A stretch of DNA of 34,582 nucleotides from a virus: positions 1-34,582 of the IMG/VR virus record IMGVR_UViG_3300023174_000407; one strand, written 5' to 3'. Under the pieces are notes generated by a model that saw nothing but the letters and a program-made list of their open reading frames with translations, had not been told where the DNA came from and searched no databases. Shown here piece by piece: positions 8,180 through 30,630 of this stretch (positions within the stretch are counted from its first letter, which is position 1; each line of letters begins with the position of its first letter). A program made the translations under genes and the position numbers.

Positions 8180-8219
8180 GGAAAGAGATTGGCATAATAT
8201 AACTTGCTAGTCTCTTTCC
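8180..8219 (+). other. Stem-loop between tRNA-Gly and tRNA-Asn
   Basis: GGAAAGAGAT (8180-8189) pairs with GTCTCTTTCC (8210-8219): nine Watson-Crick pairs plus one G-U, with a 20-base loop. A short T-containing stretch follows, but there is no clean U-tract. It may be an RNase processing hairpin or a weak terminator inside the tRNA belt. Confidence 0.5.
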
Positions 8220-8224
8220 TTCTA

Positions 8225-8297
8225 TCCCCAATAGCTCAATCGGCAGAGCGTCAAACTGTTAATTTGAATGTTCCTAGTTCAAGTCTAGGTTGGGGAG
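8225..8297 (+). tRNA. tRNA-Asn (GTT)
   Basis: Acceptor TCCCCAA/TTGGGGA is perfect, with discriminator G. Anticodon stem TCAAA/TTTGA with loop CTGTTAA gives GTT at 8258-8260. The T-arm CCTAG-TTCAAGT-CTAGG is perfect. No CCA is encoded. Confidence 0.93.
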
Positions 8298-8338
8298 CTC
8301 GGAGGCAGACGTTCTACAATTACCTAGAAAGGGTTAAA

Positions 8339-9361
8339 ATGAAAAAGGCATTAGTTACTGGAGTTACTGGACAAGATGGTTCTTACCTTGTAGAGTTTCT
8401 TTTAGAAAAAGGATATGAGGTTCACGGACTTAACCGTAGAACATCAACCCCTAATGATGATAGGGTTAACCATTTATCAAAAACACCTAACTTTTTTATG
8501 CATGACGGTGATCTTACAGACTCAGGTTCACTTACAAGACTAATTAGTTTAATTAAACCAGATGAGATTTATAATCTTGGTGCACAATCACACGTTGGAC
8601 TATCTTTTGATTATGCAGAAGTAACTGCAGATATTAATGCTTTAGGACCACTTCGTATTCTTGAGGCTATTAGATTACTGGGTCTTAATACAAAATTTTA
8701 TCAGGCATCTACATCAGAAATGTTTGGTAAAGTTCAGGAAATTCCACAGTCAGAAACTACTGCATTCTATCCACGATCACCATACGGTGTAGCAAAACTT
8801 TATGCTTATTGGATTACAAAAAATTATCGTGAGTCTTATGGAATGTTTGCTTGTTCTGGCATTCTTTTTAATCACGAGTCTCCAAGACGTGGAGATAATT
8901 TTGTTACCCAGAAAATTGTAAAGGGTTTACACGCAATATCAAATAACAAACAAGACTGTTTATATCTTGGAAATCTTGATGCTATGCGTGACTGGGGTCA
9001 TGCCAAAGACTTTATTGAGGCTATGTGGATGATTCTGCAACAAGATGAACCAGATGATTTTGTTATTGCAACAGGTGAAACACACTCTGTTAGACACTTT
9101 ATTGATATTGCATCAAAGCATTTTGATATGAATATTGAATGGCAAGGCGAAGGTTTAGATGAAATAGGCATTGATACTAATACAGGAAATACCGTTATTA
9201 GAATTAGCCCAGAGTTTTTTAGACCAGCAGAAGTAGATATTTTAATTGGAAATATTGACAAGGCTATTACAAAACTTGGGTGGAAGCCTAAGATGTCTTT
9301 TGAAGAACTTGTAGAAGATATGTGTAAAAGCATTACAAAAGAGAGTATACTAGAAGTATGA
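8339..9361 (+). CDS. gmd: GDP-mannose 4,6-dehydratase
   Basis: 340 residues, the normal length for GMD. An extended short-chain dehydrogenase: nucleotide-binding GVTGQDGSY (residues 8-16), HDGDLTD, a catalytic T-S-E (T125-E127 in [10 protein letters not shown]) and YGVAK (Y149, K153). It converts GDP-mannose to GDP-4-keto-6-deoxymannose, the precursor of GDP-fucose, rhamnose or perosamine. The frame is open upstream through tRNA-Asn, but AGAAAGGG just before ATG 8339 and the exact family N-terminus set the start. It is flanked by tRNAs, a typical place for acquired cargo. The epimerase-like gene at 26779 or a host enzyme could use its product (inference). Confidence 0.92.
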
Positions 9362-26190: not shown

Positions 26191-26782
26191 TTTTTATAAA
26201 AATGTTGGAAAACCAACAGAAGAAAAAGTAAAGCTTTTTATAGATGCTTTTACAACAAACGGATCTGATAAAACTGGGTATCACAATTATGAATTAATTT
26301 ATTCTGCATTATTTAATGATGAATCTAAAATAAAAAATGTACTTGAAATGGGAGTGCTTAAGGGTGCATCGCTTAAGTCTTGGAAAGATATATTTTTAAA
26401 TGCTAAAATTGTTGGATTAGAATATGACCTAGAAAACTTTTTTACAGAAGACAGAATTACATCCTTTTATGTTGATCAAACTAAAGAGCACACCTTTGAC
26501 AATTTTATTAATTTTATAGAAGATAGAAAATTTGAGTTTATTGTTGATGATGGATCACATCTTTTTGAAGAAACTAAACTAACATTTACAAAACTTTTAC
26601 CGCTTCTTGATATAAATGGATGGTTTGTTGTTGAAGATATTTGTTTAGAGTTTGAACAGTTATGGTTAGATATTGCAGAAAATTTACCAAATAATTATGA
26701 ATCATATTTAGTTAATTTAAATAATTTAGCCCAAACTAATGGTGAAGACAATATTGTATTAGCAGTTAAAAGAATAAAATGA
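26174..26782 (+). CDS. MycE-like sugar O-methyltransferase
   Basis: 202 residues. DKTGYHNYELIYSALF, then VLEMGVLKGASLKSWKDIF (SAM loop), VGLEYD, and FEFIVDDGSHLFEET followed by GWFVVEDI match the MycE/rhamnosyl 2'-O-methyltransferase type, metal-dependent enzymes acting on sugars. It overlaps the GT2 gene by 17 bases after a GGAGAG site. Likely methylates the sugar transferred by its neighbour. Confidence 0.75.
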   Translation: MSGLDNFYKNVGKPTEEKVKLFIDAFTTNGSDKTGYHNYELIYSALFNDESKIKNVLEMGVLKGASLKSWKDIFLNAKIVGLEYDLENFFTEDRITSFYVDQTKEHTFDNFINFIEDRKFEFIVDDGSHLFEETKLTFTKLLPLLDINGWFVVEDICLEFEQLWLDIAENLPNNYESYLVNLNNLAQTNGEDNIVLAVKRIK

Positions 26783-27783
26783 AAGTTTTAGTAACAGGTG
26801 TTGCAGGTTTTATGGGAAGCCACCTAGCAGATGAATTTATTAAGCGTGGACACCAAGTAGTTGGTATCGATAACTTTATTGGAGGATATCCAGAAAACGT
26901 ACCAGATGAAGTAGAGTTTTGGAAATTAGATTTAAATGATTTAGAGTCATTGCATCAACCATTTACTGGGGTAGACTTAGTTGTTCATACAGCCTGTACT
27001 GCATATGAAGGGCTTTCAGTATTTTCACCAGCACTTGTAGTAAAAAATACCTCACAAATAATTACAACAGTTATGAGTGCATCTATTAAAGCAGGTGTAA
27101 AAAAAATTGTACATATGTCGTCTATGGCTAGATATGGTACACAAGAAGTTGTTCCTTTTACAGAAGACTTGTTGCCTTTACCCCAAGACCCATATGGAAT
27201 TGCAAAATATGCTGGTGAGTTGTTAATTAAAAACTTGGCAGAAACTCACGGAATGAAATATACAATTCTTGTTCCACACAATATCATTGGACCTAGACAG
27301 AAGTATGATGATCCATTTAGAAATGTAGCATCAATTATGACAAACCGTATGTTGCAAGGTAAGCAACCTATTATTTATGGAGATGGTAGTCAAATGAGAT
27401 GTTTTTCGTTTATGCAAGATGTAATAGATCCATTAATGATTGCCTGTGAAACAGATGCGGTAGATGGTCAAATTGTAAATATTGGTCCAGATGAGGAGTT
27501 TATAACAATTAATGAATTGGCAGAAAGAATTGCTAAAATCCTTAAGTTTGACCTTGATCCTATTTATATGCCAGGAAGACCACAAGAAGTTAAACACGCA
27601 AATTGTTCAGCAGATAAAGCTAGGAGTCTTTTGGGGTATAAAACAAGCACAACTCTTGATGATGGATTAAAAGAATTAGTTAATTGGATTGCATCTAAGG
27701 GTGAAAAACCTTTTGACTATCATCTTCCATTAGAGTTTATTACTGAAAAAACACCAAAAACTTGGTCTGAAAAACTTATGTAA
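26779..27783 (+). CDS. NAD-dependent sugar epimerase/dehydratase
   Basis: 334 residues, extended SDR. Dinucleotide motif GVAGFMGSH (residues 7-15), HTACTAYEG, HMSS-M (S114), YGIAK (Y139, K143) and VPHNIIGPRQ, GDGSQMRCFSFMQDV are in the right order for UDP-glucose 4-epimerase-like enzymes. It makes or converts a nucleotide sugar. ATGA overlap with the methyltransferase. It might act on the product of the gmd gene, but substrate cannot be inferred. Confidence 0.85.
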   Translation: MKVLVTGVAGFMGSHLADEFIKRGHQVVGIDNFIGGYPENVPDEVEFWKLDLNDLESLHQPFTGVDLVVHTACTAYEGLSVFSPALVVKNTSQIITTVMSASIKAGVKKIVHMSSMARYGTQEVVPFTEDLLPLPQDPYGIAKYAGELLIKNLAETHGMKYTILVPHNIIGPRQKYDDPFRNVASIMTNRMLQGKQPIIYGDGSQMRCFSFMQDVIDPLMIACETDAVDGQIVNIGPDEEFITINELAERIAKILKFDLDPIYMPGRPQEVKHANCSADKARSLLGYKTSTTLDDGLKELVNWIASKGEKPFDYHLPLEFITEKTPKTWSEKLM

Positions 27784-29127: not shown

Positions 29128-29646
29128 CTAATTATATAAACTATCTATTGGACCCTTGCAAGATGGTGAGAGCTCTATTGCAGCAGAAACTGCTGTGTAG
29201 GCTCTTTTTTCTGGAGATTTCCAAGAAGCGGTGGTATATAAAGAACCAAGAGCAATAGATGAACCTGATCCAATAGCCATATATTCACACTCTGATACTT
29301 GCCAGTCTTGAGTATCTACAAAGAATAATTTTCCAGATACACCAATTAGAAATGAAGCGTGAGCATTATCTTTTAGGTCTACCCCAGAATCGGTTAATGC
29401 TTTGCGTACCGCAGTTACCCAAGTAGTACGCATAAACTTATCGATATTAGCCCTTGGCGGTGTAGGCAGAGCCATCCAATGAAGTAATTGTCCTGTGCCT
29501 GGAGAATCGGCGTATCCAATAAGATACTTATCATTTATTTTAATCTTAGGCACACTCATTGCAGTAATAACATCATCATCTGATAATCCACGTTCTGCTG
29601 CCATATAGACATTATCGCCATCTGCGATGGCTACAATACAAGTCAC
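29128..29646 (-). CDS. Proteasome-beta/HslV-like Ntn-hydrolase
   Basis: 172 residues starting MTCIVAIADGDNVYMAAE. After Met removal the N-terminal residue is Thr, the nucleophile; K33 (mature numbering, in VPKIKI) is in place, and the usual D17 is Glu. GSGSSIALGSLYTT and RAYTAVSAAIELSPSC match the later conserved region of HslV/proteasome subunits. Members form ring peptidases fed by an ATPase. No ATPase partner is visible. Start is GTG with GGAG eight bases upstream. Last but one gene of the leftward operon; could degrade host or phage proteins in a host with proteasomes. Confidence 0.75.
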   Translation of the reverse strand: MTCIVAIADGDNVYMAAERGLSDDDVITAMSVPKIKINDKYLIGYADSPGTGQLLHWMALPTPPRANIDKFMRTTWVTAVRKALTDSGVDLKDNAHASFLIGVSGKLFFVDTQDWQVSECEYMAIGSGSSIALGSLYTTASWKSPEKRAYTAVSAAIELSPSCKGPIDSLYN

Positions 29647-29819: not shown

Positions 29820-30001
29820 CTTTTTCCATTCTTCTTATGATTTTGGGGGGTAGGAGAAGAAATATTACTTTGATCCATATAGTACATATAATACTTAACA
29901 AACCACTGTTCATAATCTTTATCATCAAGAAATGGACCAATGTCTTGTTGGTGATCAAGCATAGCTTGCTTTACAAGAGCAACAATATTACTTTGAGGCA
30001 T
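29816..30001 (-). CDS. 61-residue hypothetical protein
   Basis: Acidic helical start and an aromatic cluster (WFVKYYMYYMD), then a basic tail (NHKKNGKR). Overlaps neighbours on both sides. Not recognised. Confidence 0.55.
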   Translation of the reverse strand: MPQSNIVALVKQAMLDHQQDIGPFLDDKDYEQWFVKYYMYYMDQSNISSPTPQNHKKNGKR

Positions 30002-30113
30002 CTATAGTCCATTCTGATTTTTCGGCGGTAGGAGGAATATCCCTCAATGATAACCATATAGTCAATATAGCTATAGTAATCCATATAGCAAAGGCTATGG
30101 CATATCTTCTCAC
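29988..30113 (-). CDS. 41-residue single-span membrane protein
   Basis: GTG start. A basic N-terminus (RRYA) and a strong hydrophobic span (IAFAIWITIAILTIWLSL) are followed by a polar C-terminus. First gene of the leftward operon to 29128. A complete promoter places the GTG at the transcript 5' end, so no SD is needed. Confidence 0.6.
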   Translation of the reverse strand: MRRYAIAFAIWITIAILTIWLSLRDIPPTAEKSEWTIDASK

Positions 30114-30120
30114 ATAGACT

Positions 30121-30149
30121 ATGATATCAGAGAATTGTCTGATTGTCTA
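30121..30149 (-). promoter_or_regulatory. Leftward promoter giving a leaderless mRNA (gene at 30113)
   Basis: On the minus strand TAGACA (30144-30149), 17-base spacer, TATCAT (30121-30126), seven bases to GTG 30113. Confidence 0.65.
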
Positions 30150-30326
30150 GTGCTAATTTCCGTCCAAAATATATATGCACACCTGTGGATAACTTGTGGA
30201 AAACTATGATAAAGAACCTATAAGATATTATATACGAATACTTGCATAATATTTGCATAATGTATGTGTAATCGGGTGCATCCAATCGTAATCGTAATGT
30301 TATAAATATACCCTTGACTTGTTATT

Positions 30327-30359
30327 TTCCCTTGAATTTAAACAACTTTCGTAATGTCT
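30327..30359. repeat. Dispersed element, copy D (partial)
   Basis: TTCCCTTGA (30327-30335) followed after 12 bases by TTCGTAATGTCT (30348-30359). It lacks the AGGGTCG block of the other copies. It lies in the origin-like gap. Confidence 0.55.
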
Positions 30360-30383
30360 GGGCATATTGTTATAGAAAAAACC

Positions 30384-30413
30384 TTGACAAAGCTCTCAAA
30401 ATGTGCATAAAAT
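30384..30413 (+). promoter_or_regulatory. Rightward promoter entering the iteron array
   Basis: TTGACA (30384-30389), 18-base spacer, TAAAAT (30408-30413), which overlaps the first repeat. No rightward gene follows, so it could make a primer or antisense RNA, or be chance in AT-rich DNA. Confidence 0.4.
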
Positions 30414-30498
30414 TCATGCATAAAACGTGCATAAAATGCATAAATTATGCATAAAACTTGCATAAAAGTATCAGAAAAGATAAGATTATTATTCATTT

Positions 30499-30630
30499 CT
30501 ATATGGTTTTATATGCATCATATATTTCATTACACTTAATGCATCTTATATAGGTCATATTGGTATATGGGCATTGACTAGCTACCCCCATTTTGTGTCC
30601 TGTTATATAACAGATTAATTTGTTAAACAT
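30499..30630 (-). CDS. DUF1660-like 43-residue protein
   Basis: LICYITGHKMG, then CPYTNMTYIRCIKCNEIY. The C..GHK, CPYT and C-x2-C pattern is that of tiny phage proteins of the DUF1660 type, probably zinc-binding. Overlaps the next upstream gene by eight bases. Function unknown. Confidence 0.65.
   Translation of the reverse strand: MFNKLICYITGHKMGVASQCPYTNMTYIRCIKCNEIYDAYKTI

Follow-up and report, generated by a model that had tools for sequence, protein, structure and literature searches.

The locus considered here raises the question of what a short noncoding interval is doing in the genome of a lake phage when it combines boxes for the host initiator DnaA with a helically phased repeat array, and, in particular, whether it is a replication origin. 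The window, i.e., the whole stretch of 34,582 nucleotides under analysis, is a 34.6-kb fragment of a larger tailed phage of roughly 100 kb. The interval itself (30114–30498, 385 bp; hereafter, the gap) fills precisely the stretch from one minus-strand ORF to the next. On its left border lies a 41-aa membrane-like ORF (29988–30113), the first gene of a leftward operon, and on its right border a 43-aa ORF (30499–30630) with a weak similarity, under the Pfam cut-off, to DUF1660/zinc-ribbon proteins. An HslV-family peptidase gene further to the left (29128–29646, minus strand) served to find relatives.

A perfect DnaA box, TGTGGATAA (TTATCCACA on the minus strand), occupies positions 30184–30192, and a second, variant minus-strand box, TTTTCCACA, follows at 30195–30203, 11 bp from the first, start to start. 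Two plus-strand copies of TTGCATAAT, likewise 11 bp apart, are found at 30242–30250 and 30253–30261. Then comes the six-unit plus-strand array of TGCATAAA(A) at 30404–30467, with TGCATAA units starting at 30404, 30417, 30428, 30437, 30448 and 30459, i.e., with a spacing of 13, 11, 9, 11 and 11 bp. All of these positions had been given correctly in the initial annotation, as had a rightward promoter-like pair overlapping the first unit: TTGACA-18-TAAAAT (30384–30413, plus strand) matches the consensus at 11 of 12 positions, has its -10 inside array unit 1, and reads TTGACA-18-TATAAT in the relative G005. Three features are to be added, namely a 52-aa minus-strand ORF through the array (see below), a ninth TGCATAA on the minus strand at 30445, within the array, and a leftward promoter, TAGACA-17-TATCAT with TG before the -10 (30149–30121, minus strand), which serves the HslV-side operon and has the DnaA boxes 35 bp upstream of it. 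Low-stability DNA resembling a DUE (30440–30560) overlaps the array and extends to the right of it; this site is the second-lowest of the window, and its G004 equivalent is the lowest of 71 kb. As a separate observation, an upstream element composed of ACATTACGAA, about 8 nt and AAAAATCACKGGAA (minus strand) precedes small minus-strand genes in the window (30348, 30663 and 30855) and in relatives, resembling start-associated sequences of cluster K mycobacteriophages.

The number of DnaA boxes in the window as a whole is at chance level (15 found with at most one mismatch, 14.2 expected), and therefore it is their clustering that matters. Two boxes fall in the gap, against a mean of 0.04 and a maximum of 1 in 300 shuffles, and the clusters of four boxes in each of G003, G004 and G005 exceed the shuffle maxima as well. 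TGCATAA occurs eight times on the plus strand within 517 bp, compared with a mean of 0.22 and a maximum of 3 in 2000 shuffles.

The module is intact in four relatives (L029, G003, G004 and G005), where two or four tandem boxes of the same orientation are followed, about 40 bp on, by a TGCATAA copy, an AT-rich spacer and an array of spacing identical to that in the window. The perfect box is kept in all of them, three (G003, G004 and G005) carry four tandem boxes at the corresponding place, and the first TTGCATAAT copy is invariant in five relatives; the G005 array has a substitution in two of its six units. In an alignment of five relatives, 67 of 85 motif columns (79%) are invariant vs. 170 of 374 other columns (45%). 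Most boxes differ just between TTATCCACA and TTATACACA, both being DnaA-box forms of E. coli oriC; for instance, boxes 2 and 3 are TTATACACA in G004 and TTATCCACA in G003. Outside this group, the picture is patchy. G013 and G011 have five and three array units, respectively, and no DnaA box; L034 and L036 have five boxes in a different layout and one array unit, the array being absent; L074 (G022) has four units and one box; the gap of G017 contains neither boxes nor array; and the whole module is absent from L070 (G018), L072 (G020) and L076 (G024). Several contigs end near the gap, which could reflect assembly breaks at a repeated element. Conservation of the gap is thus real but lineage-limited, with boxes and array lost independently in near sisters. 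The repeat conservation expected by the initial annotation holds in exact spacing for close relatives and fails in several sisters.

As for the phage, its terminase shares 63% identity with the one of the Streptomyces phage Gilson (Stanwilliamsviridae), and its IMG/VR relatives are syntenic genomes of 85–102 kb. One of them, G013, encodes DnaB-, DnaG-, DNA polymerase III alpha (DnaE)- and RecA-like proteins, and the gene order helicase, primase, DnaE, RecA, Cas4-like is common to Gilson. Judging by the terminase and the synteny of replication genes, the phage can be regarded as Stanwilliamsviridae-like, and this kinship points to a probable actinobacterial host. No recognisable initiator was found among 68 further G013 proteins (best 25 of 31 families), a set that leaves out large and structural proteins; the genes neighbouring the gap gave no Rep-like Pfam match, and no initiator gene is adjacent. 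Elsewhere in the window, two separate genes (8204–9361 and 26779–27783) both match the phage nucleotide-sugar epimerase family phrog_540.

Another part of the genome has a stronger claim to be the starting point of replication. In G005, some 12 kb rightward of the gap and outside the window, a leftward block of genes and a rightward one part at a divergent junction. In the relatives covering this junction, GC skew reaches its minimum there or close by, and not at the gap, where the test proposed in the initial annotation would require it; the skew maximum falls at a convergent junction, about 1 kb to the left of the gap. DnaA boxes are present at the junction in nine of nine relatives (2–12 each), their count exceeding the shuffle maximum in seven and equalling it in two (G005 and G027); in G017, ten boxes are packed into 190 bp. 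Six contigs carry at the junction a composite element, GGTRAANAYTWGGTRAA-N(3-7)-TTATCCACA (at most three mismatches); in related form, it recurs in seven Stanwilliamsviridae phages, Streptomyces phages among them, within their large noncoding gap. The element is absent from the gap of the window. Scanning IMG/VR with the freshwater form of the composite returned 14 loci, each with at least two DnaA boxes within 600 bp and a maximum of 10; one end of the pattern is itself box-like, and the loci are in several cases near-identical or drawn from contigs that were part of the comparison before. The family's other DnaA-box clusters are likewise noncoding, and the boxes of Streptomyces phages are highly conserved across several genera despite otherwise diverged sequence. 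In the G013 junction region (L056:9000-12200), a promoter-like unit, TTGTCAGACCCCTATGCTAGAAT, is also repeated before several small genes.

Such evidence suggests that the main DnaA-dependent origin of the phage family is more likely the junction cluster. Since the record of the window ends before the junction, its state in the window's own phage is presumed from G005. Skew follows the direction of the genes in these phages, and the DnaA locus of Gilson is separated from its skew minimum by about 14 kb, measured through the ends; for these reasons, we weigh skew lightly, as it cannot locate an origin alone, and the argument rests mainly on the generality of the boxes and of the composite element. 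Cluster BE1 Streptomyces phages are reported to have direct terminal repeats some 11 kb long (PMC5764925), which may bear on the placing of both loci.

Overall, our tentative interpretation is that the gap is an origin-like element of an accessory and lineage-specific kind and not the main origin; we give this reading a probability of roughly 0.4. The boxes, the array, its spacing, the conservation of the motifs and the predicted instability are the observed part of the model. From there, host DnaA would bind the two to four tandem boxes, and a phage- or host-coded protein would bind the phased TGCATAA array; together, they might bend the AT-rich DNA next to the array, melt it and help to load the phage DnaB-type helicase, or else modulate this loading. 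The gap would then act as an accessory origin or control site, because a more widely shared DnaA-box cluster lies about 12 kb away. Speaking for such a role are motifs far above chance, motif columns more invariant than the rest, the least stable DNA of G004 adjoining the array, and a phage group with DnaB-, DnaG- and DnaE-type proteins and no recognisable initiator among those scanned. Speaking against it are the position away from the skew minimum, the missing composite element and Rep-like gene, the losses in sisters and the conserved promoter next to the boxes.

That promoter makes transcriptional control a close rival, since the boxes stand 35 bp upstream of it; we consider this explanation possible but somewhat doubtful. 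Here, the boxes would modulate the leftward promoter, and a regulator bound to the array would repress the rightward promoter or act remotely. The leftward promoter (TTGACT-17 or TTGACA-17-TATCAT in G013, G011 and L034) is kept even in relatives without boxes, in the window lineage a near-consensus rightward promoter has its -10 under the array, and 11-bp direct repeats suit DNA binders of the OmpR/PhoB or ParR type. On the other hand, the rightward promoter has no rightward gene to control and is not preserved in G011, G013 or L074, the array is more than 250 bp from the leftward promoter, and four tandem DnaA boxes are unusual at a phage promoter. An origin-type role is slightly favoured over regulation because tandem boxes of the family are otherwise found at candidate origins. 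Both might hold together, by analogy with P1, whose RepA sites serve both replication and autoregulation.

The remaining explanations are considerably weaker. The initial annotation took boxes plus repeats in AT-rich DNA as the make-up of an origin, and this is supported in so far as the boxes and the phased array are not due to chance, keep their exact spacing in close relatives and lie next to very unstable DNA; that this is the principal origin of the phage seems improbable to us, given the skew minimum and the more general box cluster elsewhere and the absence of the module from related near-complete genomes, for all the DnaA boxes, AT-rich DNA, phased repeats and low stability that would suit it. 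Equally hard to favour is a datA-like decoy, in which the boxes would titrate host DnaA, hindering the host or tuning phage initiation. Box numbers do differ between gap and junction (4 vs. 2 in G005, 0 vs. 12 in G013, 0 vs. 10 in G017), but the boxes are few, the sample is small and the array would stay unexplained. Finally, a 52-aa ORF (30338–30496, minus strand), whose ATG is 2 nt past the stop of the upstream gene, runs through the array, and an ORF of 50–61 aa does so in all five window-lineage sequences. This ORF may be a gene, but its coding signal is weak: pN/pS is 0.73, array bases are conserved irrespective of reading frame, and the base composition of TTTTATGCA by itself keeps minus-strand frames free of stops. 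The gap gave no credible Rfam match that would indicate a structured RNA.

Returning to the accessory origin, it is tempting to suppose a wider scenario in which probably lytic actinobacterial phages with their own DnaE-type replisome recruit host DnaA at two loci, a conserved GGTRAA-composite site and a fast-changing accessory origin made of boxes and a phage-specific 11-bp array, but in this full form, we regard it as rather unlikely. How replication starts is a question for any phage with a bacterial-type replisome and without an obvious initiator, and the DnaA boxes of freshwater relatives and Streptomyces phages offer a testable answer, the capture of host DnaA. The gap would also illustrate how DnaA sites come and go among close relatives.

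In terms of distribution, perfect DnaA-box pairs 11 bp apart in IMG/VR include at least 47 loci with four or more boxes in 400 bp among the 119 matches listed, some of which may belong to prophages or hosts; clusters of DnaA boxes are, therefore, no rarity in viral DNA. Among the matches listed, the combination of boxes with a TGCATAA array was seen in this phage group only. The gap had no blastn match in 50,697 phage and 72,556 plasmid records, and the array does not behave as a general viral motif, other viral contigs with two units having at most three and no DnaA boxes within 600 bp. Searches of open-access full texts brought up no account of DnaA boxes for these actinobacteriophages.

Among known systems, operator arrays of the ParR/parC and OmpR/PhoB types share with the gap direct repeats of about 11-bp period over a promoter; unlike them, the gap has no identified parM/parR-like gene or dedicated regulator. 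The junction locus of the phage family is similar in being noncoding and in having tandem boxes, often at an 11-bp distance, and differs by up to 12 boxes, the skew minimum, the GGTRAA composite element and the lack of a TGCATAA array. The Gilson noncoding region (NC_048742, 120849-121449) resembles the gap in having conserved TTATCCACA boxes in a large intergenic interval; unlike the gap, it has no TGCATAA array, shares the composite element with the junction locus, and has its boxes on either side of a conserved noncoding block some 170 nt long. This block (L083:40850-41450; L237-L244) is conserved across Streptomyces phages, is also matched by blastn in phages of Arthrobacter and in an 18-kb Streptomyces phage, belongs to no credible Rfam family, and may represent an RNA or a portion of an origin. 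Iteron origins with DnaA boxes (P1 oriR, RK2 oriV and F oriS) are the other point of comparison. Their units are 17–22 bp long and spaced by about 20–23 bp, in contrast to 7–9-bp units spaced by 9–13 bp in the gap, an 11-bp spacing being half that of typical plasmid iterons; unlike them, the gap has no adjacent rep gene and is not universal among close relatives. Like them, it brings together, in some 300 bp, boxes, unstable AT-rich DNA and a direct-repeat array, with six TGCATAA units beside an instability minimum. The joint use of DnaA and iterons, thought unusual for a tailed phage of this type in the initial annotation, has a precedent in phage P1, whose oriR combines host DnaA boxes with iterons.
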